This document shows, piece by piece, positions 593 to 15,336 of a stretch of DNA of 64,000 nt (the stretch's first letter is position 1; each line of letters opens with the position of its first letter). The notes beneath the pieces were generated by a model that searched no databases, was not told where the DNA came from, and saw only the letters and a list, made by a program, of their open reading frames with translations. This DNA is from Fontibacillus panacisegetis (GTDB lineage: Bacteria > Bacillota > Bacilli > Paenibacillales > Paenibacillaceae). A program made the translations under genes and the position numbers. Location of the stretch: NCBI RefSeq assembly GCF_900102215.1, contig NZ_FNBG01000029.1, positions 1-64,000 on the forward strand, in the 5' to 3' direction.

Positions 593-954
593 CAAGCTTA
601 TAGCTGCTATAGCATTTCTATAGCTATATAGTAACCCGTGCCCAACTGTACACGTGAAGGACACTTGCGATGTTCCTGCTTAGACTACAACTGCAACTGT
701 AACTGCATGTAATTTTCTAAAACAACAAAAGCCCTACCTCTCATTTGTCCTTGCGGCTCCGATGACCGCGCCAGCGTGAATCAGAATTACTTGAAAAATC
801 CTTACTTTTCGTGAGAGTTTAAAAAGGAATTTCATACCGAACTGGTAATAAGGAGAGTTATAATCTTTTGAGGAACTACATTAATGAGGTTTACTTTCTT
901 ATTATAGTGAAAACAAAATGAAAATGCAAGAAAGTTTTCAAGGGTTATAATAAA

Positions 955-1044: not shown

Positions 1045-2136
1045 TTAGTTGTCGAATTCATAGCTGTCATTGGTTTTGTTAAGCATTTCTTTAAAGCCGG
1101 AAGAGGCAAAAAGCTTCTTGTCCTTGGAGATGAACAGCGCTTCGGTGTCTTCCGTATTTTCAATGAACTTCAGTCCATCTTCAATCCCAAGTACAAACAA
1201 GGTAGTAGACAGCGCATCAGCGTTAGTAGAAGAATTTGTTACAATCGTTACGCTGCTTATCCCATTATCGACAGGGTATCCTGTTCTAGGATCAAGAATG
1301 TGCTGGTACAGTTTGCCGTCTTCGATGAAAAATCGTTCGTAGATTCCAGAGGTGACGATCGTTTTGTCTTCGACTTTAATCGTTCCGATTGGATTTCCAC
1401 GTTCCTGGTCGGGATCCTGAATACCGATATTCCATGGAAGGTTGCCTGGTTTTTGGCCCATAGCATATACGTTGCCGCCAAGATCTATAATTGCACTGTT
1501 AAAGCCTTGATCAGCCAGATACTCATAAATTTTATCGGCTGCATAGCCTTTACCGATGGAACCAAGGTCAATGGACATGCCTTTTTCCTGTAAGTAGATT
1601 TCATGATTTGCTTCATTTAACTCAATTTTACGGTAATCGCATAGTTTTTGGGCTTCAGCGATCTCTTCCGGCTCAGGCACATGAGCACCCTCATGCCCAA
1701 TATTCCAGAGACTTACTAAATTACCGATCGCAGGGTCGAACATACCATTTGTACGCTTCGCGTAATCCATTGCTTTGGCTACGAGATTATAAGTTTCTTC
1801 AGATACCTGAACTGCGGCAATTCCGGAATTTTCGTTCACTTTATAGATTTCGCTGCCTTCAAGCTGACGGTTAATCTTTTGATCAATATCCTTGAGCAGC
1901 GCTTCGACATCCTCAAGATTTTGCTTGGTAGCACGATTATCATATATTTTGACGTTAACAATCGTATCGAAAATAAAATAAGTTTCAGATAGGGGTTGAA
2001 CCACCTGAGATTGAGTCTGGTGTTCATTAGTTCCTGACTTAGTGTTTGGAGTCTCGTTTGCTCCGCCACAGCCGCTAATCAAAGTCCCAAGCATAGTCAT
2101 AGCGACTAGTAAAATCGCTGTTTTATTCATTCTCAT
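1045..2136 (-). CDS. apbE: ApbE-family FAD:protein FMN transferase lipoprotein (FmnB-like)
   Basis: A 363-residue lipoprotein with signal peptide and lipobox (ending ISGC, Cys about 23), so it should act on the outer face of the membrane. ApbE enzymes cleave FAD and attach FMN through a phosphoester to Ser or Thr of target proteins. Family hallmarks are visible: FDTIVNVKIYD near the start of the catalytic domain, the DLGSIGKGYAADK loop, and HILDPRTGYP near residue 280. The likely substrate is the tandem FMN-binding lipoprotein encoded at 14257-15159. It is divergent from the NusG-II/Gx/ECF genes. The gene context matches fmnB of the Listeria extracellular electron transfer locus. On the minus strand a TTTGTGAAT sequence (2211-2219) upstream resembles a ResD site. 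Start chosen: ATG behind GAGG. Confidence 0.93.
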   Translation of the reverse strand: MRMNKTAILLVAMTMLGTLISGCGGANETPNTKSGTNEHQTQSQVVQPLSETYFIFDTIVNVKIYDNRATKQNLEDVEALLKDIDQKINRQLEGSEIYKVNENSGIAAVQVSEETYNLVAKAMDYAKRTNGMFDPAIGNLVSLWNIGHEGAHVPEPEEIAEAQKLCDYRKIELNEANHEIYLQEKGMSIDLGSIGKGYAADKIYEYLADQGFNSAIIDLGGNVYAMGQKPGNLPWNIGIQDPDQERGNPIGTIKVEDKTIVTSGIYERFFIEDGKLYQHILDPRTGYPVDNGISSVTIVTNSSTNADALSTTLFVLGIEDGLKFIENTEDTEALFISKDKKLFASSGFKEMLNKTNDSYEFDN

Positions 2137-2278
2137 AAGTGCAGCCTCATTTCATTCAGTCATTTCGACCTTGATTTTAGCAGAAAATCTGTTCTACTAA
2201 AAGTATTCCTATTCACAAATAGTTAATGTACTATATATATTCAATTTAAAATGGTAATTCTGTGAATTATACACCCAA

Positions 2279-2322
2279 TGAGACATTTGTCACGCTTCTA
2301 TTCATAGGGTAAAATGTATAAT
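2279..2322 (+). promoter_or_regulatory. Promoter of the NusG-II/Gx/ECF operon with FNR-like box
   Basis: TGAGA-CATTTG-TCACG (2279-2294) matches the FNR/CRP half-sites TGTGA...TCACA at 8 of 10 positions. A TATAAT -10 box at 2317-2322 lies 22 bp further on, placing the site at about -42. An alternative constitutive reading also exists: TTGTCA at 2287-2292, a 17-bp spacer, and TAAAAT at 2310-2315. Which one is used cannot be decided from sequence. Confidence 0.5.
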
Positions 2323-2368
2323 GAATTCGTCTAAGATTTACATTATTAAAAAATAAGGGAGTACATAC

Positions 2369-2761
2369 ATGAAGCGCGGAGATATTATTCTTATTGGAAT
2401 TGTGATAGCTATTGCTTTGGCATTTATAGTCCCTCGATGGCTTAATGAAGACACAAGTGAAACAAATCACGAAGAGGCAAGAGTTGCAAAAATTACAGTG
2501 GATGGCAAGCTGTTCAAAACCGTGTCTTTAACTAAAGAAGAGCAGACGGTTGAGGTTAATACGGAGTTTGGTTCTAATACTCTGAAAATTCATGATTATG
2601 GTATCGAAATGCACGATGCCGATTGCAAGGATAAAGTGTGCTTCACCTTCGGTTTTGTTGATCGCAATGGGGGCACGATTATTTGTTTGCCACATCGACT
2701 CATGGTAGAAGTAGAGGGGCCGTCCGGGGAAGGGGATGACGTCGATGTCATCGTTAAATGA
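2369..2761 (+). CDS. NusG domain II-containing membrane-anchored protein (EetA-like)
   Basis: A 130-residue protein with one N-terminal membrane anchor (IILIGIVIAIALAFIVP, residues about 6-22) followed by an extracytoplasmic beta-rich NusG-II/Lin0431-type domain. The family signature is present: DADCKDKVCFTFGF, then IICLPHRLMVEVEG, including the C-x4-C pair and CLP-(N/H)-R. The biochemical function of this family is not established. Its neighbours (ApbE, Gx transporter, ECF, PplA, Ndh2) suggest it is the EetA component of an electron transfer locus. It overlaps the next gene, which indicates translational coupling. Start: ATG behind AAGGGAG. Confidence 0.8.
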   Translation: MKRGDIILIGIVIAIALAFIVPRWLNEDTSETNHEEARVAKITVDGKLFKTVSLTKEEQTVEVNTEFGSNTLKIHDYGIEMHDADCKDKVCFTFGFVDRNGGTIICLPHRLMVEVEGPSGEGDDVDVIVK

Positions 2762-3302
2762 GCATTCTAGCATAGCATTGAAAAGAACTGTCATCGTCTC
2801 TATTTTTGCAGCGGTAGCCGTTGTTTTAAGTTTGGTAGAGGCCTTGATCCCAGTAAATATGAGCGTGCCGGGTGCAAAGCTTGGTCTGGCTAACATTATG
2901 GTGCTGACGTGTCTGTACTTTCTGCGTCCAAGAGATGCTTTAATGATGGTAGTACTGAAAACGCTGCTTACCGCATTTATTTTCGGGACATTTTCAAGTT
3001 TGCTTTTCAGTATAATGGGAGCTATGTTTAGCTTTGTAGCGATGGGGTTTCTGCTGCTGGTTGGACGTAAGCGGCTTAGCTTGATTGGCATTAGTATAAT
3101 TGGAGGTATTGCTCATAATATCGGTCAGCTTACAGCGGCTACTCTATATTTTAAGACTTCCAAAATATTTTACTATTTACCGATGCTTATGATCATGGGA
3201 GTACTCACTGGAATTGCTGTCGGTATAGCAGTTCGTTACTTGGTACCAGCATTATCGAAACTGTCGCTGTTCGAGGATTTTTTAAAGGAAGAGACAGCAT
3301 AG
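2745..3302 (+). CDS. Gx transporter family membrane protein (EetB-like)
   Basis: An integral membrane protein of about 185 residues with five to six hydrophobic segments, of the family formerly named 'heptaprenyl diphosphate synthase component I' and now Gx transporter. The early motif (VEALIP, then PGAKLGLAN at about residue 45) is typical, and ECF S-components have a similar size and topology. It sits directly upstream of ecfA1-ecfA2-ecfT, so it could be the substrate-binding S-component of that module, or EetB of the electron-transfer locus. These two ideas are not exclusive. The start at 2745 is preferred because AAGGGG lies 9 bp upstream; ATG 2736 is possible. It overlaps the preceding gene. 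Confidence 0.8.
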   Translation: MSSLNEHSSIALKRTVIVSIFAAVAVVLSLVEALIPVNMSVPGAKLGLANIMVLTCLYFLRPRDALMMVVLKTLLTAFIFGTFSSLLFSIMGAMFSFVAMGFLLLVGRKRLSLIGISIIGGIAHNIGQLTAATLYFKTSKIFYYLPMLMIMGVLTGIAVGIAVRYLVPALSKLSLFEDFLKEETA

Positions 3303-3330
3303 GGACAAGACTGGAAGGGGGAGAACGACG

Positions 3331-4170
3331 ATGTCAGGAACCGAAAACGCTTATGAGCTGCATCAGGTGTCTTTTGCTTATGAATCAGAGCAATCGGTAC
3401 TAGACGGCATAACACTTAGTATCCCTTCTGGAAGCTGGGTTTCGCTCGTTGGCCCTAATGGCTGCGGCAAGTCGACGTTAGCTAAATTACTAGGCGGGCT
3501 GCTTGCTGCTAATGCAGGGGAAGTTGTAGTAGAAGGCACTGTGCTGAATCGCGAGACAATCCACCAGATTCGTCCTCGGATCGGCATGGTATTCCAGAAC
3601 CCGGATAATCAATTCATCGGATCTACTGTTGAGGAGGATATCGCTTTTGGATTGGAAGGACGTTGTCTGCCAAGAGAAGAGATGATCCATCGGGTACGTA
3701 AGTATGGGGATAAGCTGGAAATAGGTCATTTGCTGTCCAAACACCCTTCTGAATTATCTGGCGGGCAAAAACAGCGGGTGGCCGTTGCTGCTATTTTGGC
3801 GATGGAACCAGGAATTGTTATCTTTGATGAGGCATCCTCGATGCTTGATGAGAAGGCACGCGGCGAGCTGCTCGACATAATAAAGGAAATGAAACAGTCC
3901 GGTGAATACACGATAGTATCCATTACGCATGATGCTGAAGAGATTATGTACTCAGACAGAGCAATTGTGCTTCTTGATGGTGGAGTTGCAGCTGATCTTA
4001 GTCCAGAAGATTTGTTCCATGATGATGCTCTGTTACAATCCTGTCGTCTTATCGCTCCTTACCGGATTCAGCTAGTACGGGAGCTGGCTAAGCTGGGCGT
4101 ACAGGTCCCACCTTTGCAGCGTGAAGAGGAGGTGACGGAGGCGTTATGGCAATTACACTTGAACAAGTAA
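3331..4170 (+). CDS. ecfA1: ECF transporter ATPase EcfA1
   Basis: A 279-residue ABC ATPase with all the motifs: Walker A GPNGCGKST (41-49), Q-loop in MVFQNPDNQF, signature LSGGQKQR, Walker B IVIFDEA followed by SMLD, and the switch His in ITHDAEE. VFQNPDNQ and DEASSMLD are characteristic of the EcfA1 subfamily. It pairs with EcfA2, whose start codon lies inside the 3' end of this gene. ECF modules normally sit beside ribosomal protein genes (rplQ). Placement here, next to ApbE and Gx-family genes, suggests a dedicated second copy for moving flavin across the membrane. Confidence 0.93.
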   Translation: MSGTENAYELHQVSFAYESEQSVLDGITLSIPSGSWVSLVGPNGCGKSTLAKLLGGLLAANAGEVVVEGTVLNRETIHQIRPRIGMVFQNPDNQFIGSTVEEDIAFGLEGRCLPREEMIHRVRKYGDKLEIGHLLSKHPSELSGGQKQRVAVAAILAMEPGIVIFDEASSMLDEKARGELLDIIKEMKQSGEYTIVSITHDAEEIMYSDRAIVLLDGGVAADLSPEDLFHDDALLQSCRLIAPYRIQLVRELAKLGVQVPPLQREEEVTEALWQLHLNK

Positions 4171-5072
4171 GCTATGCATATGATGATCGCAGCCTTTGGC
4201 GCAATGGTGCGCTGGAGGATATCAATCTGAAGCTGGATCAAGGTGTGTTTGCTGGTATCGTAGGTGCTACCGGATCGGGAAAATCTACTCTGTTGCAGCA
4301 TTTTAACGGAATATTGAAACCAACCTCAGGGAAGGTGCAGGTTTTTGATTACATTTTGCAGGCCGGGGAAAAGAATCCTCCGCTTCGTGAACTGCGCCGG
4401 CGAGTTGGACTTGTATTTCAATTCCCGGAGCATCAGTTATTTGAGGATACTGTCGAGAAGGACATTTGTTTTGGACCTCTTAACTTTGGAATGTCTAAGG
4501 AAGAAGCGAAAGAGCGGACAAGTCGTGCATTAAATATGTTAGGTCTCGATGATTCGTTCCTCTCTCGAAATCCGTTTCATTTAAGCGGAGGACAGATGCG
4601 CAAGGTAGCGATTGCCTCCGTGCTGGCGATGGACCCGGATATTATCGTGCTGGATGAGCCTACTGCGACTCTTGATCCACAGAGCAGGGCTGAGCTGGCA
4701 GAGCTGCTGTTCCGCCTGCAGCGCGATCTGGGCAAGACCGTCATAGTTGTTACACATCGGATGGAGGAAATGCTTCCATATGCCGATACGTGGATCGTTA
4801 TGAAAGATGGACGGAAAATATTTCAGGGTTCGAAGATCGAGCTAGTACGAGAAGCTAATACACTTGCCAAGTCAGGCCTTTCATTGCCAACCTGTATAAC
4901 AGAATGGAATCAGCTTGCTGCCCGATTTGGTCTGGAGCATGAGGAGCCGTGTCTGACCGCGGGATCGGCAGCTGTAAGGATCGCGAAGCTGCTCACAAAT
5001 CGTATGGACAAGGACACTGATCCTGGTAGCAATTCAACCAGTCCGGACGAAGGGGGCGAGCCGTATGCGTAA
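4146..5072 (+). CDS. ecfA2: ECF transporter ATPase EcfA2
   Basis: A 308-residue ABC ATPase with Walker A GATGSGKST (about 40-48), FQFPEHQLFEDTV (Q-loop, EcfA2 type), signature LSGGQMRKVAIAS, Walker B IIVLDEPTATLDP and switch His in VVTHRMEEM. The C-terminal tail of about 40 residues is low-complexity and hydrophilic. It overlaps ecfA1 by 25 bp and ecfT by 8 bp, so the three are translationally coupled. It powers the ECF complex together with EcfA1. The start ATG is preceded by GGAGG. Confidence 0.93.
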   Translation: MAITLEQVSYAYDDRSLWRNGALEDINLKLDQGVFAGIVGATGSGKSTLLQHFNGILKPTSGKVQVFDYILQAGEKNPPLRELRRRVGLVFQFPEHQLFEDTVEKDICFGPLNFGMSKEEAKERTSRALNMLGLDDSFLSRNPFHLSGGQMRKVAIASVLAMDPDIIVLDEPTATLDPQSRAELAELLFRLQRDLGKTVIVVTHRMEEMLPYADTWIVMKDGRKIFQGSKIELVREANTLAKSGLSLPTCITEWNQLAARFGLEHEEPCLTAGSAAVRIAKLLTNRMDKDTDPGSNSTSPDEGGEPYA

Positions 5073-5865
5073 CAAGCTTCTGTTTGGCCGCTGCATTGAT
5101 ACCGGATCATGGGTTCATGCTGTGGACCCGCGGGCCAAGCTTACAGCTATGGTGCTCTATCTGGCGGCATTATTGGCTGTGGGTTCATGGATACCGCTTG
5201 CTATTGCCGCGGCTTTTTCGTTAGCGTACATGCTTGCTACCCAGATTCCCTTGAAATATTTTGTGAAGGCGGCAAAGCCGCTTTGGGTTCTCATGGTGTT
5301 CATCTTTGTCATTCAATGTCTTACGGTGGATGAAGGCGTGGCCTTGTGGCAGATCGGGTCATGGACGTTGTATAGCGAAGGGCTTAGCAAAGGTCTGATC
5401 GCAGCTTTACGGATGGCATTATTGGTCTCTTTTACCGCGATTCTAACCTTTACGACTACACCTGGTTTGCTGAATCAAGGGATGTCCGGCGTACTGAAGC
5501 CGCTTGAGAAGATTGGGATTTCTGCAGAGCGTTTGACGCTCATGATGAGCATAGCGCTGCGGTTCATTCCAACGATTCTTGATGAGACTCACAAAATAGT
5601 AAAAGCTCAGGCAGCACGTGGTGCGGATCTTAAGGAGCTGCCGTGGAAGGAGAAAGGGAAACTGCTGGTTTCACTGCTTGTTCCGGTGACGGTAAGTGCT
5701 TTTCGCCGTGCGGAAGACCTTGTGCTTTCGATGGAATCCAGAGGGTACTTGATCGGCGCTCCGCGTTCGGAGTATCACTTGCTGGTATGGCGAAGCAGGG
5801 ACACAGGGTTTATCTTGTCTTTTATCGTACTGGTAGCAGTTGTTGTTGTTCTCAGATTTATATAG
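5065..5865 (+). CDS. ecfT: ECF transporter transmembrane subunit EcfT (FmnA-like candidate)
   Basis: A 266-residue membrane protein with five or more hydrophobic segments. The two coupling-helix motifs that contact the ATPases are visible: AARGADL (about 178-184) and MESRGY (about 221-226). The opening (IDTGSWVHAVDPRAKL) is the classic EcfT/CbiQ N-terminus. In Listeria a dedicated EcfT homologue, FmnA, works with RibU to move FAD outward for flavinylation. The gene neighbourhood here suggests the same role, but that is an inference. No RibU gene is in the window, so either a distant RibU or the neighbouring Gx protein would be the S-component. Confidence 0.9.
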   Translation: MRNKLLFGRCIDTGSWVHAVDPRAKLTAMVLYLAALLAVGSWIPLAIAAAFSLAYMLATQIPLKYFVKAAKPLWVLMVFIFVIQCLTVDEGVALWQIGSWTLYSEGLSKGLIAALRMALLVSFTAILTFTTTPGLLNQGMSGVLKPLEKIGISAERLTLMMSIALRFIPTILDETHKIVKAQAARGADLKELPWKEKGKLLVSLLVPVTVSAFRRAEDLVLSMESRGYLIGAPRSEYHLLVWRSRDTGFILSFIVLVAVVVVLRFI

Positions 5866-5882
5866 TTCGTATTGCAAGTCCA

Positions 5883-5941
5883 AGTGAAGGAGCGGATATG
5901 TTATTTATGATCCTAGAACATCATCCGCTTCCTAACTTCAC
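5883..5941 (+). terminator. Long imperfect hairpin after ecfT
   Basis: GTGAAGgAGCGGAT pairs with ATCCGCTtCCTaACTTCAC around a loop of about 25 bp, directly after the ecfT stop codon. There is no clear T-run, so it may be a processing or stabilising stem rather than an intrinsic terminator. Confidence 0.4.
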
Positions 5942-5961
5942 CTATTCCTGACGCATATATG

Positions 5962-5977
5962 TGTGAAAAAAATCACA
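5962..5977. promoter_or_regulatory. FNR-type box upstream of the U32 gene
   Basis: TGTGA-AAAAAA-TCACA is a perfect match to the Gram-positive FNR/CRP consensus, centred 51.5 bp before the U32 start codon. No good -10 box lies at the spacing expected for a -41.5 activator site. TAAATT at 5988-5993 would put the box over the -35 region. Confidence 0.65.
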
Positions 5978-6020
5978 TTTTACATCATAAATTACTACAG
6001 CGATTTGAGGGGGAAGCGCT

Positions 6021-8033
6021 ATGGCACGTTATTTTAATGGAAAAGAAATTGAACTGCTCGCACCAACGGGAACGTTTGAAATATTCAAAGAAGTGATTCA
6101 TGCGAATTGTGACGCCGTCTACTTGGGTGGGCCAAGTCTGAATATGCGTCTTATGCGTAAAGGGTACAACTTCACATTAGAACAAATTACAGAGGCCGCT
6201 GAAATCGCACATTCCTTAGGCAAAAAGGTGTATGTAACAGTAAACAATTTGCTGAATGAAGGAGAGCTGAATGAGGCCCGTACTTATTTGAAATTTCTTG
6301 AGAACGCAGGCCCGGACGCTATCATCGTTCAGGATTTTGCCATTCTTGCTCTGATTCGTGAAATGGGGCTCTCGATTCCGGTGCATTCCTCCGTCATGAT
6401 GAACGTGCATAATGTGGAAATGGTCAAAGCGCTTCAAGAGTTAGGAGTCACTCGTGTCGTAACATCACGTGAAATGGATTTGATGACGACTCGATACCTG
6501 CAGGCGGCTACTGGCATGGAGCTGGAGTACTTTGTTCACGGTGATATGTGCTCTGTTCATGGAGCAAATTGCTATTTTAGTTCGATGGTATTCGGTATGA
6601 GCGCTAACAGAGGAAAGTGCCTTAAGCCTTGCCGCTGGGATTATCGCGTGAAGAAGGATGGTCACGTCTACCCTGCAGAATATCCTCTGGCCGCAAAAGA
6701 TATGTTCATGTACGAGCATATTCCAGAACTGATTCATGGCGGGATTACTTCGTTCAAAATCGAAGGACGCATGCGTGATGCCAATTTTGTGCTGATGCTT
6801 ATTAATGCTTACGGAGATGCGATTGATCGTTATATCGAAGATCCGGCCGGATTTAATCGCAGCAAGGATACCAAGCTGCTGTATGATAACCGCAAACGTG
6901 ATTTCTCAACGGCATATGCATTTGGAAAACCGGGTCTCTCGTATATTAACAAACGTTATGAGGGAACAGGTAAATTTTATAGCACAGGCAAGGTATTCAG
7001 CACACCAACGGAAGAGCGTGAGCTAAGCGACAAACGCCTGGAAGACATTCGTAATAAATGGACTGCTGCTCAGACGGATAAGGTTCATGGCATGAATAAA
7101 TCGGAGCTTTCCGTTCATGTGAACAATATGGCTCAGGCGAAAGTTGCAATTAAGGCGGGGGCTGACCATATTTATTTGTCGGGTGATGTGTACGAACCGG
7201 ATCGTCCTTTTACTAAGGATGAGATCAAAGAGCTTGCAACAATAAAAGGTAATGCAAAAATATATCTATGTCTGCCACGGATGATGACCGAGCTGCATTT
7301 TGAAATCTATGACGGGCTGTTGTCGGGCGAGAGATTGCCGATTGATGGTGTAATGGTAACGAACCTTGGGGCGATTCACAAATTTGCTTCCAAGGGTTAT
7401 TCGCTGATCGGTGACTTTAATCTGAATGTATTTAACCCGCTTGCAGTACAATTCTATGCAAATTACGGGGTAAAACGTCTTACTGCATCAATGGAATTGC
7501 CATTGAATGATTTGATGGATCTGCTCAGAAATGCAAATGCGCCACTTGAGGGCATAGTGCACGGATCTCCTACAATGATGTATATGGAGCATGACCTGTA
7601 TGCAAATACTGAAGCTTTTGAGCCGATTGATGAAGAAGATAATCATTATGTAGATAACAGCATTCTTGTGCTGAAGACTGATAAGGGAGAGAATCCGGTG
7701 TATCGCGATACACATGGCCGCTGCCATTTGACATTGGCAAAGGAGCTGTGCCTGTTACCGCTTGTGAAGGAGTTGACCGAAGCAGGCCTGTCCGTCATCC
7801 GTATTGAAGGTGCTACCTATAAGCCAGAGCAGCTTGAAGCTGTTGTGGGGGCCTATAGAGCCGTACTGGATAACCCGGATATGGCGGCTGAGGAATTCTC
7901 CAAACTGGCTCCTGTTTATGCAGGATACACGCTGGGCGCGTTGCAATTTAACGGGGGACGGACGGCAGAAGCTGATAAAAGTGTAGAGCAAACAGAGGCC
8001 TCACAGCTAGTAAAGGAACCGCAGCATGTTTAG
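6021..8033 (+). CDS. Peptidase U32 family protein (probable Fe-S enzyme)
   Basis: A 670-residue protein. The N-terminal half is a TIM-barrel-like U32 domain beginning IELLAPTGTFEIFKEVI. It carries the conserved cysteine cluster HGDMCSVHGANC (about 174-186) and GKCLKPCRWDY (about 196-206), which in studied relatives (UbiU/UbiV, RlhA, TrhP) binds a 4Fe-4S cluster or supports hydroxylation without O2. The C-terminal half is a collagenase-like extension typical of long U32 proteins. True proteolysis is doubtful. It is preceded by a perfect FNR-type box and lies among flavin and quinone genes, so anaerobic hydroxylation of rRNA, tRNA or a quinone precursor is a reasonable guess. Strong RBS GAGGGGG. 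Confidence 0.88.
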   Translation: MARYFNGKEIELLAPTGTFEIFKEVIHANCDAVYLGGPSLNMRLMRKGYNFTLEQITEAAEIAHSLGKKVYVTVNNLLNEGELNEARTYLKFLENAGPDAIIVQDFAILALIREMGLSIPVHSSVMMNVHNVEMVKALQELGVTRVVTSREMDLMTTRYLQAATGMELEYFVHGDMCSVHGANCYFSSMVFGMSANRGKCLKPCRWDYRVKKDGHVYPAEYPLAAKDMFMYEHIPELIHGGITSFKIEGRMRDANFVLMLINAYGDAIDRYIEDPAGFNRSKDTKLLYDNRKRDFSTAYAFGKPGLSYINKRYEGTGKFYSTGKVFSTPTEERELSDKRLEDIRNKWTAAQTDKVHGMNKSELSVHVNNMAQAKVAIKAGADHIYLSGDVYEPDRPFTKDEIKELATIKGNAKIYLCLPRMMTELHFEIYDGLLSGERLPIDGVMVTNLGAIHKFASKGYSLIGDFNLNVFNPLAVQFYANYGVKRLTASMELPLNDLMDLLRNANAPLEGIVHGSPTMMYMEHDLYANTEAFEPIDEEDNHYVDNSILVLKTDKGENPVYRDTHGRCHLTLAKELCLLPLVKELTEAGLSVIRIEGATYKPEQLEAVVGAYRAVLDNPDMAAEEFSKLAPVYAGYTLGALQFNGGRTAEADKSVEQTEASQLVKEPQHV

Positions 8034-8088
8034 CTTGGTAGGGTAACTCGATTTGATAGTGAAAGCCGCTAACATGATGGCGAAATTC

Positions 8089-8263
8089 CTGCAAAAGTAC
8101 ATCTTTATACTAAGAGCTTCATTCATCAGGTAAAGTTCCTGCAAAAATACACCTTTTTATTCTCCAAACGTTGGTTTGGGGCGTAATCGTTTGAAATTAC
8201 TGCACTCATGCAAGCTTTTTCATAAATATGGTTATTTCAGCTCGAAAAAACTGTATTTTTGCT
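8089..8263. repeat. Intergenic CTGCA-palindrome array, copy 2
   Basis: Four motifs start at 8089, 8139, 8200 and 8251 (intervals 50, 61, 51): CTGCAAAAGTACA, CTGCAAAAATACA, CTGCACTCATGCA, CTGTATTTTTGCT. The first three are preceded by AAATT or AGTTC. This array accounts for most of the 300-bp gap between the U32 and aminotransferase genes, and no gene is apparent in it. Confidence 0.7.
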
Positions 8264-8339
8264 GCTTTTTCTGGAGTGGGAGAGACTGGCCAATCGGATT
8301 AGGCTACCTTGTATTCAAGTGTAAATAGGAGAGGAGAGA

Positions 8340-9629
8340 ATGAACATGCAGCAATATATCGGACCGGAGGGTATTCTCTCAAAAAGAGGGCAGTATTTCT
8401 ATCCTTGTACCAGTTATTTTTATCGGAATCCGCCCCAGCTAGTGAAAGGAGAAATGCAATATCTATATGGTCATGATGGAAAATGCTATACTGATTTTTT
8501 TGCAGGCGTTTCTGTCGTGGCGAGCGGTCATTGCAATCCAGAAATTGCGGAGCGAACAGCAGAGCAGCTAAAGACGCTGCAGCATACGTGTACTATATAT
8601 TTGACTCAGCCTAATGTAGATCTTGCGGAGCGTCTTGCAGGAGTGCTGCCGGGTAAGCTTAGCCGGACGTTTTTTGTAAACAGCGGGTCTGAAGCTAATG
8701 AAGGGGCATTACTGCTTGCCCGTCTTCATACGAAGCGGCGCGGTTTTATTGCGCTGGAGCAAGGACTGCACGGCCGTACCTATCTGACCATGAGCGTGAC
8801 AGGCTTAAAAATGTGGCGTTCAGACCCGCAGCTAGCCGAATCAGGTGAGGATGTGACCTTTATACCTCGGCCTTATGAGCCTGGGCTTAGCAAGGATGAG
8901 GCAGCTCGTCGCTCCATCGGTGCACTCAAAAAGGTGCTTGAGGAGAAGGGACATGAAATTGCAGCTATGATCGCTGAGCCGATTCAAGGGAACGGCGGGA
9001 TGATCGTGCCTCCGGATTGGTATTTCCCTGAAGTGAAGTCACTCTTGGAGCAATATGGTATACTGCTCATTGCTGACGAAATTCAGACAGGATTCGGTCG
9101 TACAGGACGCATGTTTGCAATGGATCTATGGGGAGTAGAACCTGATATAGTGACGATGGCAAAAGCGCTTGGAAGCGGCATTCCAGTGGCAGCATTCGCT
9201 TCTACAGATGAAATCGCGGCAAGCTTCAATAAGCCGTCAGCCTCCACCTTTGGGGGAAATCCGGTTTCATCTGCAACTGCACTCGCAGTGCTGGATTATA
9301 TTGAGTCACATAGCCTGGCAGAGCGCGCTGAACGTCTTGGCGACTTGTTAAAGAGTGGGCTTCAGGAGTTGGCTGGTCGTTACCCTGATATGATCTCTGA
9401 GGTGCGTGGAGCAGGGTTGATGATCGGTGTGGAGCTGTGTGCGGAGGACTCCGAAAGGGGGGCCGTGCTAGTTGATGACCTTCTGGAGGAAATGAAGGAC
9501 CGCGGCTTTATCATCGGTAAAAATGGCGTTGGACGCAATGTGCTTGCTTTCCAGCCACCTCTCGTCATTACAGAGGATGATATCCGCGAGATGCTGTCTG
9601 CCCTCTCAGCTTCACTATCAAGCGTGTAA
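8340..9629 (+). CDS. Class III PLP-dependent aminotransferase
   Basis: A 429-residue fold-type I aminotransferase of the acetylornithine/GABA/AGXT2 group. Visible features are FVNSGSEANEGALLLAR (PLP phosphate site, about 112-128), LIADEIQTGFGRTGR (Asp contacting the pyridine nitrogen) and MAKALGSGIPVAAF with the Schiff-base lysine at about 276. The closest family resemblance is to alanine-glyoxylate or 3-aminoisobutyrate-pyruvate aminotransferases, but the substrate cannot be fixed from sequence. It is embedded between the electron-transfer genes without an obvious metabolic partner, so it may be a passenger. RBS GGAGAGGAG. Confidence 0.88.
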   Translation: MNMQQYIGPEGILSKRGQYFYPCTSYFYRNPPQLVKGEMQYLYGHDGKCYTDFFAGVSVVASGHCNPEIAERTAEQLKTLQHTCTIYLTQPNVDLAERLAGVLPGKLSRTFFVNSGSEANEGALLLARLHTKRRGFIALEQGLHGRTYLTMSVTGLKMWRSDPQLAESGEDVTFIPRPYEPGLSKDEAARRSIGALKKVLEEKGHEIAAMIAEPIQGNGGMIVPPDWYFPEVKSLLEQYGILLIADEIQTGFGRTGRMFAMDLWGVEPDIVTMAKALGSGIPVAAFASTDEIAASFNKPSASTFGGNPVSSATALAVLDYIESHSLAERAERLGDLLKSGLQELAGRYPDMISEVRGAGLMIGVELCAEDSERGAVLVDDLLEEMKDRGFIIGKNGVGRNVLAFQPPLVITEDDIREMLSALSASLSSV

Positions 9630-9746
9630 ATATACCTAAGCAACCTCTTAAAGATTTGGATGATTTAGCCGTTAAATTAGCATGGACTTCATTTCAGTGG
9701 AGACAGTGTAGATGAACACAGGCAAGGAACGTTTCAAGGAGAGTGG

Positions 9747-10625
9747 ATGAAGATGGAATATGCTCGGAAAATCGGTACAAAAATAAAGCTGTACAGCCAG
9801 CTGGTGATGTTCTCGCATACATTATTTTCACTGCCATTTGCGGTGATCTCGATGATATGGGCTGCTGAGGGATTGCCCTCCTGGCATGTGATGCTATGGG
9901 GATTGATCGCGCTTGTGGCTGCGCGTAATGGTGCTAATGCGTTTAATCGCGTTGTCGATCAATCATTTGATGCGATGAACCCTAGAACCGCTCATAGGCA
10001 CCTTCCCAAGCGTCTGCTGGCGTCTAAAGAAGTGCTGTGGTTCGTGGTAGTGAACTACGCGATATTTATTTTTGCAGCGGGCATGCTCAATATGCTGTGC
10101 TTTATTTTATCGCCAGTAGCTATTTTTCTGATCTCATCTTACTCGTATACAAAACGCTTCACCTATTTGAGCCATCTGTATCTTGGCTTTACGATAGCTT
10201 CAGCACCGATTGGAGCCTGGTTTGCGGTCACCGGACAATTCGCCTTTACTCCGTTTATTCTGGGTACGATTGTGATGCTGTGGATCGCCGGGTTTGATAT
10301 CATTTACGGCTCACAGGACATCGAATTTGACCGTAATCATGGACTCTGGTCTATTCCTAGCATATTCGGCCTGAAAAACGGTCTGAGAATAGCTGCAGCA
10401 CTTCATAGTATCATGGTGCTCCTGTTGATTGTCCTTATTCCAATTCGTCAGCTAGGCTGGATCTATATTGTCGGAATTATAGTTTCTATCTTACTGCTGC
10501 TAACGGAGCATAAAATCATTAAGCCTTCCAGTCGAAAAGTAATGAAAGTTGCCTCCTATAACTTGAATCAGGTTATTAGCATGGTTATTCTGATCTCAGC
10601 CCTATGTGATTTTTTCTTATTATAA
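9747..10625 (+). CDS. UbiA-family polyprenyltransferase (DmkA-like)
   Basis: A 292-residue integral membrane prenyltransferase with about eight hydrophobic segments. The two Mg-prenyl-diphosphate motifs are clear: NAFNRVVDQSFDAMNPRTA (about 67-85) and GFDIIYGSQDIEFDRNHG (about 180-197). UbiA/MenA enzymes attach a polyprenyl chain to 4-hydroxybenzoate or 1,4-dihydroxy-2-naphthoate. No ubi or men genes surround it. Convergence with a polyprenyl diphosphate synthase and nearness to Ndh2 and PplA point to DmkA, which makes the demethylmenaquinone pool used for extracellular electron transfer in Listeria. It is cytoplasmic-membrane located. Start ATG behind AAGGAG. Confidence 0.88.
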   Translation: MKMEYARKIGTKIKLYSQLVMFSHTLFSLPFAVISMIWAAEGLPSWHVMLWGLIALVAARNGANAFNRVVDQSFDAMNPRTAHRHLPKRLLASKEVLWFVVVNYAIFIFAAGMLNMLCFILSPVAIFLISSYSYTKRFTYLSHLYLGFTIASAPIGAWFAVTGQFAFTPFILGTIVMLWIAGFDIIYGSQDIEFDRNHGLWSIPSIFGLKNGLRIAAALHSIMVLLLIVLIPIRQLGWIYIVGIIVSILLLLTEHKIIKPSSRKVMKVASYNLNQVISMVILISALCDFFLL

Positions 10626-10681
10626 AAAAAGCTGCTCTATCCGGTCACATTGTACGGTGACCCGAAGAGCAGCTTTTTTTT
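10624..10681. terminator. Bidirectional terminator between convergent genes
   Basis: AAAAAAGCTGCTCT...GGTCAC / GGTGACC...AGAGCAGCTTTTTTTT forms a long stem with an A-run on one side and a T-run on the other, so it can serve both the UbiA-type gene and the polyprenyl synthetase gene. Confidence 0.92.
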
Positions 10682-10691
10682 ATCTATTCAT

Positions 10692-11672
10692 TTATTTATC
10701 CCGACCGCTGAAAAAATGCAATAACGCTTGCAGATCCTTGTGCGCCGGGTACATGTCCAGTTCATTGATAATGGCCTGAGCTTCGTCCAGATATTGATTG
10801 CTAAGGGCCTCTGTTCTTATGAGAGCGTCTGACGCCTGTATGCTGGCGATGACAGCATCGATTTCGGATGAAGGGGTATCTGAGTTAATAGCCCTTATAG
10901 AAGGGGCGAGACGGCTGTCCTGGAGGGCATAGAGTACAGGAAGAGTGACTTGACCCTTACGCAGGTCGCTGCCTGCTGGTTTTCCGAGCTGCTGTGAAGA
11001 CTGAGTGAAGTCCAGCAGATCATCGAGAATCTGAAATGACATTCCGAGCTTCTCTCCAAAGCTATATAAGAGATTAAAGACTTCATCCTTTGCACCAGCT
11101 GATTGTGCACCAATACGCAGGCAAGTAGCCATAAGCTGTGCTGTTTTGTTCTTTGATTTCTCAAGATATTCTTCAGCCGTTACATCATAATCGTAAAGAT
11201 GGGACAGCTGTTGGTATTCTCCAAGGCACAGCTGTGTTGTGGCTAGCGATGACAAGTCATATACGAAGCGCTCCCGCTCTGCAGAGTAAGCAGCGATGAG
11301 CTCAATTACCCGTGCTGACATGTAGTTGCCGACATATATAGCTTCCTGAACCCCGAGCTTGACATGCAGTGCGGTCTGCCCCCGTCTAACAGGGGAATCA
11401 TCTATAATATCGTCGTGGATCAGGGAAGCGGCATGAATAAATTCTGCTGCTGCGGCAAGGCGCCACACCTTGCGTTCATTGGGGGTGGGGCCGAAACGGC
11501 TGCCGACAATGACCATCAACGGACGAACTCTTTTGCCACCAGAACGAACGAGATCAACAATACTTTTGGCAAGTGTGGAGGAGCGAGGTACATCCTTATC
11601 GAATTTGACCATATTCTCAATTTCCCGATCAACAGCGGCAAGAGAAATGTCTAATGCTTCATTGAGCTTCAT
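10692..11672 (-). CDS. Polyprenyl diphosphate synthase (DmkB-like)
   Basis: A 326-residue trans-isoprenyl diphosphate synthase with both aspartate-rich motifs: the first in LIHDDIIDDSPVRRG (about 81-95) and the second in ILDDLLDFT (about 214-222). GGKRVRPLM binds the diphosphate. It makes long-chain polyprenyl diphosphate. The genomic partner DmkA-like prenyltransferase is convergent, and a short HepS-like gene is immediately upstream on the same strand (52-bp gap), which suggests a heterodimeric enzyme. Start ATG at 11672 is chosen because AAGGGAGGG lies 7 bp upstream; an in-frame upstream ATG (11696) has no such site. Confidence 0.9.
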   Translation of the reverse strand: MKLNEALDISLAAVDREIENMVKFDKDVPRSSTLAKSIVDLVRSGGKRVRPLMVIVGSRFGPTPNERKVWRLAAAAEFIHAASLIHDDIIDDSPVRRGQTALHVKLGVQEAIYVGNYMSARVIELIAAYSAERERFVYDLSSLATTQLCLGEYQQLSHLYDYDVTAEEYLEKSKNKTAQLMATCLRIGAQSAGAKDEVFNLLYSFGEKLGMSFQILDDLLDFTQSSQQLGKPAGSDLRKGQVTLPVLYALQDSRLAPSIRAINSDTPSSEIDAVIASIQASDALIRTEALSNQYLDEAQAIINELDMYPAHKDLQALLHFFSGRDK

Positions 11673-11724
11673 AGCTGAACCCTCCCTTGATTCCATTCCT
11701 GGATGTCAAATTTACAGATGTGTA

Positions 11725-12177
11725 CTAGATCGCCTTGCTTGCACTGTTACGGCTGTGATCCAGCTTCAGGAATAATTCAAAGGCTTTTAAGAGTTTATCA
11801 TCATCTGGTTTGCCGTCCATCCGCTTAATCTGGATTTGTTTAATGACGGGAGCGAGATGTGTGATCAGGTCGTATTCGTTCCATTCGAGACATAATTGAA
11901 TATACATGCTATATAGGTAATCGCCGTCCAGCACCAAGCGGGTGAGTGTTTCGCCAGTAATGGATTCATCACAACTACTGTGGCGTAGAAGGGCGACCTT
12001 GATTGCAATGTAAATGGATAACAAGCGGCGCGCACGAAGTTGATGGAGATCATATTGCTCCAAAAGGTCGGTCATGGGCTGCACGTCATCTTCTAACAGA
12101 TTCAGGTGAATGCCGGCCTCGGGCGATATTTCGCCCTGCAACAAGTGACAAGCGTCTTGGATGAGCTTAGATTTCAT
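11725..12177 (-). CDS. Short HepS-like protein (possible small subunit of polyprenyl synthase)
   Basis: A 150-residue soluble protein directly upstream of the polyprenyl synthase gene. The segment LVLDGDYLYSMYIQLCLEW followed by NEYDLITHLAPVIKQIQ (about residues 83-118) resembles the core of heptaprenyl diphosphate synthase component I (HepS: LaGDyysglYYklLAe...IxxLaegIkeIN). It is much shorter than the usual ~250 residues and diverged. I infer it is a regulatory or chain-length subunit partnering the downstream enzyme. If the resemblance is coincidental, it is a hypothetical protein. Start ATG behind GGAGTG. Confidence 0.6.
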   Translation of the reverse strand: MKSKLIQDACHLLQGEISPEAGIHLNLLEDDVQPMTDLLEQYDLHQLRARRLLSIYIAIKVALLRHSSCDESITGETLTRLVLDGDYLYSMYIQLCLEWNEYDLITHLAPVIKQIQIKRMDGKPDDDKLLKAFELFLKLDHSRNSASKAI

Positions 12178-12242
12178 AAGGACACACTCCTTAAAAAACA
12201 GGTAGGCTTGCAGGGACCCGAACACCGAGTTCGGCAAGGGTG

Positions 12243-12284
12243 TAAAAATATAGAGTAATGCGCGACTAGCGCACATTACTCTAT
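12243..12284 (-). terminator. Intrinsic terminator after ndh2
   Basis: ATAGAGTAATG-TGCGC-TAGT-CGCGCA-TTACTCTAT followed on the minus strand by ATTTTTA. It ends the pplA-ndh2 transcript before the HepS-like gene. A smaller hairpin (CCGAAC-ACCGA-GTTCGG) lies at 12219-12235. Confidence 0.85.
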
Positions 12285-12317
12285 TGTAAATCGGTAATTA
12301 AGGTGATTGATATGATA

Positions 12318-14195
12318 TTAGTCCGTGTATAAGTACCATCTTCTTACAATCGGAATTTTCTTCCATTGTTTTTTGAGCCAAGGAAGAACATAGTAATCGA
12401 GACCAAGCATGCTGCCTGAACCACCGATTAGAGCCACACCTGCAGTCATGTACCAGAGCATTTCGGTAGATGCCATGCTGGAGGACCAGATCATAACGCC
12501 AAGCGCGACAGTAACTGCAGAAGCTACTGCGGTGAACAGGCCGAGAATCAACAGGATGCCGATTGCGATTTCCGCAAAAACCATAAAGAACTGGAATACG
12601 GTAGCAAGCGCGGTATATCCGCCGTCTGCTGTATAGAAGAATACATCCATGAACCAGCCAACGATACTCTTGATGAACCCAGGTACAGGCAGTGCTGTAA
12701 CAGCGGTAGAAGCACTTTCAACGGCAGAAGCTGCAGTTTGTGCGTCTACAGTTGAAGTTACATTTCCAGCCGCTTCACTAGCCGCTGAGATTGCGTCACC
12801 AGCATTTGGAGAAGCAGGGATCAGGAATATATTGTTCGGATCTTTCAAAATCTTAGGAAGCTTGTCGATACCTTCCTCAAGCCATTTGTAACCCACAAAA
12901 ATACGGAGCGGGAACAACCAGAAGTTTGGTGAACGCTTGGAGAAATGACCGCCCAGGAAGCTTCTGCGATTGTGTACATGGAAAAATTCGTGCATCATGT
13001 AGGTCCACATTTGGGTAAAGCCAGCAACAGTAAACAAATAGTACATATTAATCATGTGCTTACTGAGCATAGCCATAAATCCGCTAAGCATGAACATTTT
13101 ATTCGGAAGACCAACGTTGGCTACGCCATAGCGGCTACCGATACATACCATCGTTCCGTGGAATCCTGGTTTGTAAGATTTTTTTGGTTTATTATGCACA
13201 TCTGCATAAATGTTGTGAGCGATGAGCGGACCTGCTTGCTCAGCATTCTCAACCATTTGTGGTACAGGACGTGTTTCACCCTCAGGAATGAAGAAGATGT
13301 TGTCGCCTACAACGTAGACATTGTCATGATCTACGCTTTGCAACTTGTCGTTAGTTACAATCCGTTTGCGTCCTTCTTGCTTGACATCAAGCTTGCCAAC
13401 GAGATCAGAGCCTTCTACACCGGCTGTCCATACAATAGTATCTGCTTCAAGCTCGGTATCACCGAGAATAACACTTGATTTAGTAACTCCGGTAATTTTG
13501 GCGCTAGTGATGATTTCAACATTCATTTTGTTGAGACGTTTAGCAGCCTTTTGAATCAGTTTGTCAGGAAGAATTGGCAAAATCTTAGGAGCCATATCAG
13601 CAACAACGAGACGAACCTCACTGCGATCAATGTAGAACTCCTTGCACAATTCATCACGGAATTCTGCAAGCTCTCCGACGAGCTCGACACCGGTAAATCC
13701 GGCACCTACTACAACGAAGGACAGCATCTTGCGACGTTTTGCAGGGTTGTTCTCTTTAGCAGCTTCTCCGAATTTATTGCGGATCTGTTCTTTCAGACGA
13801 ACAGCATCCTCATAGGACCAGAGAGTAAGAGCATTCTCTTCAGCACCAGGGATGCCGAAGAAAGTGGGCTTACAACCTGTACCGATAACAAGGTAGTCAT
13901 ATTTGTAGGTTTCGGTTTCAGAGCGAAGCTGATTGTTGGCAAAATCAATGTTGTCGATGGAATCTAGTACAACATCAACCTTTTGGCCAGCAAAAATCTT
14001 TTTCAGCTCAATTTTGACAGAATCTTCCGGAGCCCGGTTAGCTGCAACCTCGTGTAACTCGGTTAGAAGCGTATGGTACGGATTCCGGTCAATCAGCTTG
14101 ATTTCTACGTCTTTGTCTTTTTTGAACAGTTTGGCAAGATGCTTGGATGTAACGACACCGCCATAACCGCCGCCTAGGACGACTATTCTTTTCAA
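12318..14195 (-). CDS. ndh2: Type II NADH dehydrogenase with membrane-embedded C-terminal domain (Ndh2)
   Basis: About 625 residues. The N-terminal ~400 residues form a flavoprotein of the NDH-2 family: FAD site VVLGGGYGG (residues 5-13), NAD site VVVGAGFTGVELVGELAE (about 163-180) and the second FAD contact VYVVGDNIFF...PQMVENAEQAG. Unlike ordinary Ndh, a C-terminal extension of about 220 residues follows, with an Ala/Ser/Thr-rich linker (about 470-520) and four hydrophobic helices like a DoxX/quinol-oxidase module. This architecture matches the EET-specific Ndh2 that feeds electrons from NADH to demethylmenaquinone. Start: TTG at 14195, six bases after GAAGGTGA; GTG at 14204 is the alternative. 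It is cotranscribed with pplA. Confidence 0.9.
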   Translation of the reverse strand: MKRIVVLGGGYGGVVTSKHLAKLFKKDKDVEIKLIDRNPYHTLLTELHEVAANRAPEDSVKIELKKIFAGQKVDVVLDSIDNIDFANNQLRSETETYKYDYLVIGTGCKPTFFGIPGAEENALTLWSYEDAVRLKEQIRNKFGEAAKENNPAKRRKMLSFVVVGAGFTGVELVGELAEFRDELCKEFYIDRSEVRLVVADMAPKILPILPDKLIQKAAKRLNKMNVEIITSAKITGVTKSSVILGDTELEADTIVWTAGVEGSDLVGKLDVKQEGRKRIVTNDKLQSVDHDNVYVVGDNIFFIPEGETRPVPQMVENAEQAGPLIAHNIYADVHNKPKKSYKPGFHGTMVCIGSRYGVANVGLPNKMFMLSGFMAMLSKHMINMYYLFTVAGFTQMWTYMMHEFFHVHNRRSFLGGHFSKRSPNFWLFPLRIFVGYKWLEEGIDKLPKILKDPNNIFLIPASPNAGDAISAASEAAGNVTSTVDAQTAASAVESASTAVTALPVPGFIKSIVGWFMDVFFYTADGGYTALATVFQFFMVFAEIAIGILLILGLFTAVASAVTVALGVMIWSSSMASTEMLWYMTAGVALIGGSGSMLGLDYYVLPWLKKQWKKIPIVRRWYLYTD

Positions 14196-14256
14196 GAGAT
14201 TCACCTTCTTTATTTAGGGTGGTAATCATGAAGTAATATATTGCTAAAAACCGATA

Positions 14257-15159
14257 TTATTTTGCTTGTTCCAGAGCTTTTGCAGCAAGATCATAGTAGG
14301 ATTGCAAGCTGATGGATACGCCGGAAATTGCGTCGGTTTTACCTTCTTCGTTGAACGTTAATGCTGCTGGATCTTGTTTTTCTACAAGGTATGCTTCAGC
14401 TTTTACAGCTTGTTCGTGCCATTCAGCTTGAGCGCCACCTTTTTCCTTCATACCGTATTTACCGTCGATGGAGTTTTGTTTCTTGTCTTCGCCAGCTGCG
14501 TTTACACCGCTGAAGTTAACTTTGATTACTTTGCCTGCTGCTACTACAACATCAGCAGTTTCTTTCCAGCCGGATTTAGCATCGAAATCAGCTGCTTCGG
14601 CATGGTAGGTACCATCTTTGTAAGTACCAGCTTGAACTGGTCCAGCAGTCAATGCTTGATCTGCCAATGTAAAGAATTCATTAACGTGTACGGATACGCC
14701 AGTGATTGCGTCAGTTTTACCTTCGTCGTTCAAAGTAATGTCTTTAGGATCTTGTTTTTCAATGAGGTAAGCTTCAGCTTTTTCAGCTTGCTCATGCCAT
14801 TCGGATTGAGCGCCGCCAGCTTTCATGCCGTATTTACCTTCCTTGGAATAAGTAACCTTATCTACTCCAACGTTAGCATTAGTTGCATTCCATTTAGCTT
14901 CAGTAATTTTACCGCCGGAAACAGTTAATGTAACAAAAGCTTGCCAACCAGTTTTTGCATCAGCTTCGCCTTGTGCAAAATACACGCCGTCCTGATATTT
15001 GCTTTGTTCAGCTGGTGCGTTAGTGCCTGTGTTCGTGCTGTTCTCTGTTGCAGGTGTGTTGTTAGCTTTGTCAGCTGTGTTTCCTTCATTGCTAGATCCA
15101 CATCCAGCAAGAAGACCTAGTAACAGGGCACTGCTTAGAATGATAGATGCTTTTTTCAT
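14257..15159 (-). CDS. pplA: Lipoprotein with two FMN-binding domains (PplA-like)
   Basis: A 300-residue lipoprotein: signal peptide with lipobox LLAGC (Cys20), a Thr/Asn-rich linker to about 50, then two homologous FMN-binding domains. Each ends in a flavinylation-type motif, DAITGVS (150-156) and DAISGVS (276-282), with the last Ser as expected FMN acceptor. The commonest acceptor context is S/T-G-A-T/S, so Val for Ala is a variation. The domains also share GWxxxxxV, KYGMK and a QxEWHEQAxKAEAYLxEKQDP block. ApbE at 1045 would attach the FMN. The protein would carry electrons from Ndh2/quinol to external acceptors on the outer membrane surface. Start ATG behind GGAGGT; the in-frame codons upstream to 15303 lie in the promoter. 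Confidence 0.93.
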   Translation of the reverse strand: MKKASIILSSALLLGLLAGCGSSNEGNTADKANNTPATENSTNTGTNAPAEQSKYQDGVYFAQGEADAKTGWQAFVTLTVSGGKITEAKWNATNANVGVDKVTYSKEGKYGMKAGGAQSEWHEQAEKAEAYLIEKQDPKDITLNDEGKTDAITGVSVHVNEFFTLADQALTAGPVQAGTYKDGTYHAEAADFDAKSGWKETADVVVAAGKVIKVNFSGVNAAGEDKKQNSIDGKYGMKEKGGAQAEWHEQAVKAEAYLVEKQDPAALTFNEEGKTDAISGVSISLQSYYDLAAKALEQAK

Positions 15160-15293: not shown

Positions 15294-15336
15294 ATTTTAG
15301 CATATTACTATATAGCTTTATGTGAAAAAAGTCACA
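15294..15336 (-). promoter_or_regulatory. FNR-activated promoter of pplA-ndh2
   Basis: A perfect TGTGA-N6-TCACA box (15321-15336) is followed on the minus strand, after exactly 21 bp, by the -10 hexamer TAAAAT (15299-15294). This is the geometry of a class II site centred at -41.5. No -35 hexamer is needed or visible. A second half-site TTGTGACAT lies at 15341. The remaining stretch to 15662 shows no gene. Confidence 0.75.

Follow-up and report, generated by a model that had tools for sequence, protein, structure and literature searches.

Gene content of the locus

The DNA analysed here (the window) runs from base 1 to base 64,000 of NZ_FNBG01000029.1, a contig of 66,184 bases in the 5.26-Mb genome of Fontibacillus panacisegetis (Paenibacillaceae), and it contains a locus of the flavin-based extracellular electron transfer (FLEET) type. 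Its homologues carry the names of Paenibacillus and of neighbouring genera such as Fontibacillus. An earlier note on this DNA had named the genes of such a locus, and each of them was found as a full-length open reading frame (ORF) that could be assigned to a family (Table 1); a divergent HepS-like gene had been overlooked. Clustered in the window are the genes for ApbE, EetA, EetB, Ndh2 and PplA together with quinone genes, and an ECF-T subunit is encoded beside the PF07456 protein EetB. Every protein from ApbE to the polyprenyl synthase exceeded the Pfam cut-off of its family. Ndh2 scored above the cut-off of the Pyr_redox_2 family and has a solved relative, 9pxk (E 2.9e-74), whereas the membrane tail that had been ascribed to it is weakly DoxD-like (E 0.0015, below the cut-off).

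Table 1. Genes and palindromes of the FLEET-type locus, with their window positions and the matches on which each assignment rests (FAD, flavin adenine dinucleotide; FMN, flavin mononucleotide; PLP, pyridoxal phosphate)
Feature	Position	Strand	Evidence
ApbE-type FAD:protein FMN transferase lipoprotein (FmnB-like)	1045..2136	-	PF02424 E 5.9e-93; lipobox ISGC from sequence
EetA, NusG domain II membrane protein	2369..2761	+	PF07009 E 2.5e-28
EetB, Gx family, ECF-S type subunit, predicted FAD export	2736..3302	+	PF07456 E 4.1e-43
EcfA1 ATPase	3331..4170	+	PF00005; TIGR04520 308 bits, slightly below cut-off 315
EcfA2 ATPase	4146..5072	+	TIGR04521 338.5 bits, above cut-off 330
EcfT (FmnA-like) transmembrane subunit	5065..5865	+	PF02361 E 3.8e-37
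Exact TGTGA-N6-TCACA palindrome upstream of the U32 gene	5962..5977		exact-match scan of 64 kb
U32-family protein, CX6CX15CX3C (predicted [4Fe-4S] site), probably two barrels	6021..8033	+	PF01136 E 5.5e-91
Class-III PLP aminotransferase (AMT3)	8340..9629	+	PF00202 E 3.2e-106
UbiA prenyltransferase, MqnP-like, FLEET-specific second copy	9747..10625	+	PF01040 E 1.4e-52; TIGR01475 285 bits, cut-off 181
Polyprenyl diphosphate synthase (HepT/DmkB-like), DDIID and DDLLD motifs	10692..11696	-	PF00348 E 7.5e-65
Divergent HepS-like small subunit	11725..12276	-	PF07307 E 2.2e-4, below cut-off
Ndh2, type II NADH dehydrogenase with C-terminal tail	12318..14204	-	PF07992 (Pyr_redox_2) E 2.3e-40
PplA-like lipoprotein, two FMN-binding-type domains	14257..15159	-	2kzx E 9.2e-34; ATG at 15159
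Exact TGTGA-N6-TCACA palindrome upstream of pplA-ndh2-hepS-pps	15321..15336		exact-match scan of 64 kb

Conservation in the Paenibacillaceae

The family sample consisted of 148 genomes, and a genome was called EetB-positive if it had a PF07456 match over the Pfam cut-off. This was the case for 58 genomes including that of the window; a 59th (G037) has a weak EetB match below the cut-off with two stops and was not counted. Up to 20 kb was fetched around EetB from the 57 other EetB-positive genomes, and these loci were compared with the window proteins by tblastn. Co-occurrence in relatives had been set beforehand as a test of the earlier note, and the locus passed it: eetB-ecfA1-ecfA2-ecfT is contiguous in all 57 related loci, and gene order is kept far beyond chance. 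The block ecfT-U32-AMT3-UbiA is contiguous in 52 of the 57. The U32 and aminotransferase genes, which had been described as insertions, are thus part of the locus of this family, and a random insertion is ruled out by the same count.

Taken singly, EetA and UbiA were each present in 53 of the related loci, U32 in 52, the polyprenyl synthase and Ndh2 in 47 each, the HepS-like protein in 46, PplA in 35 and ApbE in 28, one of these ApbE genes (L075) lying at another place and strand. Ten loci are without the polyprenyl synthase gene (pps) and ndh2; four of them (L054, L064, L066 and L071) end at a contig end, and the other six are full 20-kb stretches beyond which the genes may lie. Within genus g8, seven genomes have EetB, U32 and the FLEET-type UbiA, and seven have none of the three. 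The remaining ORF clusters were each confined to 14 of the 58 loci at most. In 11 of the 58 (e.g., L055, 16258-17010), a minus-strand ORF of one family, about 194 residues long, lies close to the polyprenyl synthase.

The prenyltransferase and the quinone genes

The UbiA-superfamily enzyme stands in the place of DmkA, and it had been read as the DmkA of a pathway that runs via demethylmenaquinone. The reading as a MenA-type DmkA did not hold. None of its 21 NCBIfam matches (E 1e-3) was to the model of MenA, the 1,4-dihydroxy-2-naphthoate (DHNA) prenyltransferase, which is presumably included in NCBIfam as TIGR00751. The best matches were the PRK12886, UbiA-other and MqnP models, and the scores stayed below the NCBIfam MqnP cut-offs (269 of 430, 222 of 375 and 221 of 420 bits). 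In a tree of 52 of 86 sequences, for which the FLEET copies were thinned to about one in three and long branches were flagged, the window copy groups with clostridial FLEET-linked copies and with copies adjacent to U32. It is separated by a 100/99 split from the MqnP of MqnA-containing (mqn) clusters. A MenA paralogue was rejected on the missing menA match, with the tree also against it, and we refer to the enzyme as MqnP-like.

The window UbiA is 42% identical to the MqnP of its own genome. Copies of the FLEET type (67-100% identity) were found in 55 of the 58 EetB-positive genomes and in none of the 90 other family genomes, and MqnP-like UbiA occurs in 147 of the 148 genomes at E 1e-40, the exception being G015. 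The genome also carries futalosine-pathway genes: two PF02621 genes, a stretch (L085) whose translations read as UbiX, MqnP, a methyltransferase, HepT and HepS, and another (L088) with MqnB. The UbiA, synthase and HepS-like protein of the window are of the same families as those in L085 and in this resemble the late futalosine genes (MqnP, UbiX/MqnM, UbiD/MqnL, HepT, HepS), but the UbiA lies in another part of the tree and no UbiX, UbiD or MqnA gene is found among the genes of the window locus. The synthase reached 267 bits with the HepT model TIGR02748, below its cut-off. The HepS-like protein aligned with the HepS of the genome over 58 columns (HHalign probability 80.8, E 1.3e-5), compared with 0.4 for the synthase as a control.

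In Lactiplantibacillus plantarum, dmkA is reported to encode a DHNA prenyltransferase (PMC10746273; papers are cited by PMC number from the parts of their text that were available). Since the window UbiA is not MenA-like, the formula of demethylmenaquinone made from DHNA does not simply carry over. No literature joining futalosine, Paenibacillus and MqnA was found in searches that left most subscription papers outside; a single paper linking demethylmenaquinone and futalosine with extracellular electron transfer came up, and its subject is phenazine oxidation.

UbiD-UbiA clusters were also seen in L129, L132, L133, L138 and L140, three of them with UbiX and all with no MqnA match nearby. They lie near FLEET-type genes (ndh2, apbE, eetA, eetB or pplA) and an ATP-binding cassette (ABC) ATPase, and may possibly help to bring a quinone precursor into the cell.

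The U32 protein and the class-III aminotransferase

A U32 orthologue (E <= 1e-60) was present in 54 of the 58 EetB-positive genomes, compared with none of the 90 others. Among the four EetB-positive genomes without it (G015, G048, G068 and G146), only G146 has the FLEET-type UbiA. In a phylum sample of 398 genomes, up to three U32 candidates were scored per genome, a U32 match was called full-length if it reached query residue 606 or beyond, and UbiA was called MqnP-like at E <= 1e-20 to the window protein. A full-length U32 relative was found in 50 genomes, three of them from Paenibacillaceae, and every one of these 50 has an MqnP-like UbiA, as do 46 of the 97 genomes with partial U32 matches and 43 of the 251 with none.

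Among the best 80 of 435 named U32 loci, an aminotransferase relative was found in 74 and UbiA in 16; four of the six loci without the aminotransferase end 160 bases or less from the U32 match. The named loci include Syntrophaceticus, Moorella, Thermacetogenium, Sporomusa, Pelosinus, Selenomonas and Candidatus Scalindua. The translations of L166 read as UbiD-UbiA-UbiX-U32-AMT3 followed by importer-like genes, and in L095 U32-AMT3 occurs with UbiX, UbiA, UbiD, a synthase, ApbE, an FMN-binding-type protein and Ndh2. In L192 and L208, one ORF lies between U32 and AMT3, and genes whose translations resemble cytochrome b and multihaem cytochromes follow.

The motif CX6CX15CX3C was present in all 93 U32 ORFs from the fetched loci. 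The pattern CX6CX15CX3/4C is reported for most U32 families and tied to [4Fe-4S] clusters (PMC6747719), and such a site is predicted here. The 54 Paenibacillaceae ORFs have no second cysteine motif in the C-terminal half; such a motif occurs in 44 of the 99 other ORFs that are AMT3-linked or named, and in 12 of the 15 that lack AMT3. The window protein shares the U32 domain and the four-cysteine motif with UbiU/UbiV and other U32 proteins (PMC6747719). It differs from these in having 670 residues, an aminotransferase partner gene and, judged from the order of helices and strands in a structural model (mean predicted local distance difference test score, pLDDT, 80.6), probably two barrels in one chain. 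Placement by fold was abandoned: the Foldseek matches were general barrel enzymes, and the U32 entry 5d88 came tenth with a query template-modelling (TM) score of 0.22. No solved structure matched by sequence at E 1e-3. The best NCBIfam match was the transfer RNA (tRNA) hydroxylase TrhP, and the scores stayed below the cut-offs for TrhP (181 of 534 bits), UbiU (150 of 440) and UbiV (66 of 275). The predicted PLP lysine of the aminotransferase, Lys275, is shared by at least 98% of the 78 sequences aligned. Searches that left most subscription papers outside found no literature linking peptidase U32 with menaquinone and futalosine.

Predicted flavin export and flavinylation

EetB scored 147.4 bits against a PF07456 cut-off of 30 and is the sole match to this family in the genome. 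In 8 of the 57 related loci, EetB and EcfA1 lie in one reading frame with no stop between them, and the linker measures 38-56 residues in the six fused ORFs shown; this fits EetB as the substrate subunit of the local transporter. The joined genes were seen in L044, L053, L054, L055, L056, L063, L064 and L074. In Listeria, EetB binds FAD and is required for its export, and eetB adjoins ECF-A genes in 796 genomes (Rivera-Lugo et al., PMC9973259). The EetB-EcfA1-EcfA2-EcfT set of the window is a predicted FAD exporter. The possession of its own ECF ATPases had been taken as a distinguishing mark of the locus, which it is not: besides those 796 genomes, ATPase 1/2 are part of the L. plantarum FLEET locus (PMC9888254), and an operon of the same kind is known from Paenibacillus sp. 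Cedars (PMC10373932).

The two FMN-binding domains proposed for the lipoprotein PplA were recovered by matches to solved domains, the second domain with 2kzx (see Table 1) and the first with 3o6u (E 3.1e-5); the match to PF04205 (FMN_bind) was weak (E 0.029, below the cut-off). The protein has the lipobox LAGC and two repeats, with Ser156 in DAITGVS and Ser282 in DAISGVS as the predicted FMN acceptors. Two FMN sites in PplA are plausible, but both read G-V-S and depart from the published flavinylation motif D-x-x-[S/T]-G-A-[S/T] (PMC12052999), so that the flavinylation itself, as far as it had been claimed, is unproven. Among the 120 listed of 990 homologues, 52 are two-domain proteins of 290-315 residues; the first site is G-V-[S/T] in all 52, and the second is G-V-[S/T] in 41 and G-A-[S/T] in 11. 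The deviation is therefore a family trait and not the mark of a broken copy. Of the longer relatives (about 400-440 residues, rows P0032-P0120), several bear spirochaete names and many also have G-V-S.

The genome has two further ApbE genes besides the window copy. The second (L012, 13384-14787) adjoins an FMN-binding-type partner with the usual S-G-A-T and is followed by a flavodoxin/ferredoxin-like ORF (12574-13362). The third (L013, 4051-5130) encodes a lipoprotein 45% identical to the window ApbE; ABC and ECF genes are its neighbours, and no adjoining FMN-binding-type partner was seen.

A palindrome shared by the two operons

The exact palindrome TGTGA-N6-TCACA occurs twice in the 64 kb, before U32 and before pplA only. 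With one mismatch allowed, 3 matches were found in the window compared with 2.4 expected, so that the positions of the box, not its number, are the point. The box was counted in the 350 bases upstream of each gene, with the window locus included and the eetA start estimated in loci without an EetA match. Upstream of pplA it was exact in 13 of 36 loci and present with up to one mismatch in 30 of 36; for U32 the figures were 9 and 16 of 53. With the same tolerance it preceded eetA in 9 of 58 loci, AMT3 in 3 of 53 and UbiA in 0 of 54. Nine exact boxes lay elsewhere in the 1.03 Mb of loci. All loci together contain 32 exact boxes, compared with 0, 0, 1, 0, 3 and 0 for six control palindromes.

The box resembles what we take to be the Bacillus Fnr site, and its presence before both operons points to a common regulator of the Crp/Fnr type. 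The Fnr literature, searched with most subscription papers left outside, gave nothing on boxes of this kind in the extracellular electron transfer (EET) of Paenibacillus. A promoter scan of the window was uninformative (26 found, 26.9 expected by shuffling). Two RNA elements were also seen: a match to the BsrC small RNA of Rfam at 712-799 (+) beyond the 3' end of apbE (73.5 bits, cut-off 38), and a purine riboswitch aptamer at 24805-24905 (+; 83.3 bits).

Comparison with known systems

The FLEET locus of Listeria monocytogenes (fmnA, fmnB, eetA, eetB, dmkA, dmkB, ndh2, pplA), compared by its published gene list (PMC8906456, PMC10373932), shares with the window ApbE, EetA, EetB, the ECF-T subunit, a UbiA-superfamily enzyme, a polyprenyl synthase, Ndh2 and PplA. 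Unlike it, the window locus has its own EcfA1 and EcfA2, an MqnP-like UbiA and G-V-S at the PplA sites, and it adds the HepS-like, U32 and aminotransferase genes. The EET operon of Paenibacillus sp. Cedars, an organism that reduces iron minerals, is described as containing seven of the eight Listeria genes and ecfA1-ecfA2-ecfT, with dmkA elsewhere in the genome (PMC10373932). The window resembles this published description in combining EET genes with ecfA1-ecfA2-ecfT; U32, aminotransferase and MqnP-like UbiA genes, which the window has, are not mentioned in the available part of that description.

As a FLEET locus with ecfA1-ecfA2-ecfT and the reduction of iron minerals have thus been published for Paenibacillus (PMC10373932), the general claim is already known. 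What is new here are quinone-making genes of an unexpected type within the locus and the U32-AMT3 pair that usually accompanies it in the family. No report of the MqnP-like UbiA, the U32-aminotransferase pair, the HepS-like gene, the G-V-S motif or the box was found in searches that omitted most subscription journals and in which not every feature was targeted each time.

Discussion

We propose that the window carries a FLEET locus with a separate quinone module, consisting of the MqnP-like UbiA and the HepT/HepS-like pair, together with U32, AMT3 and a shared regulatory box. We give this proposal a probability of roughly three in four, and a function of the locus in EET is likely. Electrons from NADH would enter through Ndh2, pass to a membrane naphthoquinone made for the EET pathway, move on to the surface lipoprotein PplA carrying FMN, and finally reach external acceptors, for instance ferric iron. 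FAD would be exported by EetB together with EcfA1, EcfA2 and EcfT, and ApbE would attach FMN to PplA. The quinone side would form a second module beside the futalosine genes of the cell and would not use a MenA-type DmkA, and the U32 protein and the aminotransferase, encoded in the same operon, most likely belong to the quinone branch. A Crp/Fnr-type regulator may control the two operons jointly through the palindrome. A more specific suggestion, which we put forward tentatively, is that UbiA, U32 and AMT3 carry out an undescribed oxygen-independent naphthoquinone step (hydroxylation or amination of the ring, or else an alternative late step) that is kept in anaerobic Bacillota and Brocadiaceae and gives the EET of Paenibacillaceae its own quinone.

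Several observations weigh against this proposal. The genomes are related, and the counts are therefore not independent. U32-AMT3 is missing from L037, L042 and L050, where UbiA is also missing, and from L044, where UbiA is kept; the U32-AMT3-UbiA trio of the genome of L042 (G078) lies on another contig (L127). It is missing as well from L066, which ends at a contig end, and no U32 or FLEET-type UbiA match was found anywhere in the genome of L066 (G048). In the genus of the window, the 13 other loci all lack an exact box ahead of U32, so this site is patchy. PplA has two motif changes, each of which lowers flavinylation in other targets: in one target, the change from Ala to Val left about 50% of the flavinylation, and Thr to Ser cut it by 10 to 55% (PMC12052999). 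Deletion of eetA in Listeria gave no EET phenotype (PMC9973259), and L. plantarum needed neither dmkA nor dmkB for EET when DHNA was provided (PMC9888254). Thermacetogenium phaeum has menaquinone-7 and a single UbiA-like gene that is not MenA-like (PMC3551663). Thermacetogenium genomes (L160, L162) carry UbiA-U32-AMT3, and this type of UbiA is thus compatible with ordinary menaquinone, which counts against a special or exotic quinone.

The U32-AMT3 pair might instead be an unrelated metabolic or RNA-modification pair that shares the operon of an otherwise plain FLEET locus, a possibility that we regard as real and yet doubtful. It would agree with TrhP as the best NCBIfam match of U32, with the 60 of the best 80 of 435 named loci that have U32-AMT3 and no UbiA in the stretch, with the retention of UbiA alone in L044, and with three genomes (G378, G400 and G169; L146-L148) in which U32-AMT3 is present and UbiA falls on the MqnP side of the tree; the second and the last of these also count among the points against our proposal. 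An unrelated pair would, however, leave unexplained that all 54 U32-positive family genomes are EetB-positive and that all 50 phylum genomes with a full-length U32 have an MqnP-like UbiA. The clusters in L166 and L095 and the more frequent box before U32 than before AMT3 or UbiA also speak against an unrelated pair.

That the locus serves another flavinylated process, such as an extracytosolic reductase or redox maintenance, and not the export of electrons, appears unlikely. Several other ApbE-linked extracytosolic systems exist (PMC8238504), the PplA motif is atypical, and the EET role is deduced here from genes; yet the EET set is matched by this locus, which joins Ndh2 and quinone genes with a two-domain PplA, and reduction of iron minerals is published for a Paenibacillus that has such an operon. 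Still less probable, in our view, is a role of the ECF module in importing a flavin or other vitamin, or its sharing among several S subunits. The window EcfT is one of seven PF02361 matches in the genome, and none of the six other ECF-T genes adjoins ribosomal-protein genes (translations read by eye), which leaves room for a shared role; the FAD export by Listeria EetB and the in-frame joining of EetB with the local EcfA1 argue for a dedicated exporter.

The locus is real and ordinary in outline; its quinone branch is the variant part, and it is the U32-aminotransferase pair that merits experimental work. The PplA proteins with G-V-S offer a natural set for asking how strict ApbE is on its target motif. 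If our proposal is correct, Gram-positive EET would not be tied to a single way of making its quinone: lactic acid bacteria and Listeria would keep a DHNA prenyltransferase with the pathway, and Paenibacillaceae an MqnP-like copy. The reported position of dmkA outside a Paenibacillus EET operon may find its explanation in this, and the widely paired U32 protein and class-III aminotransferase would gain a concrete, testable place.

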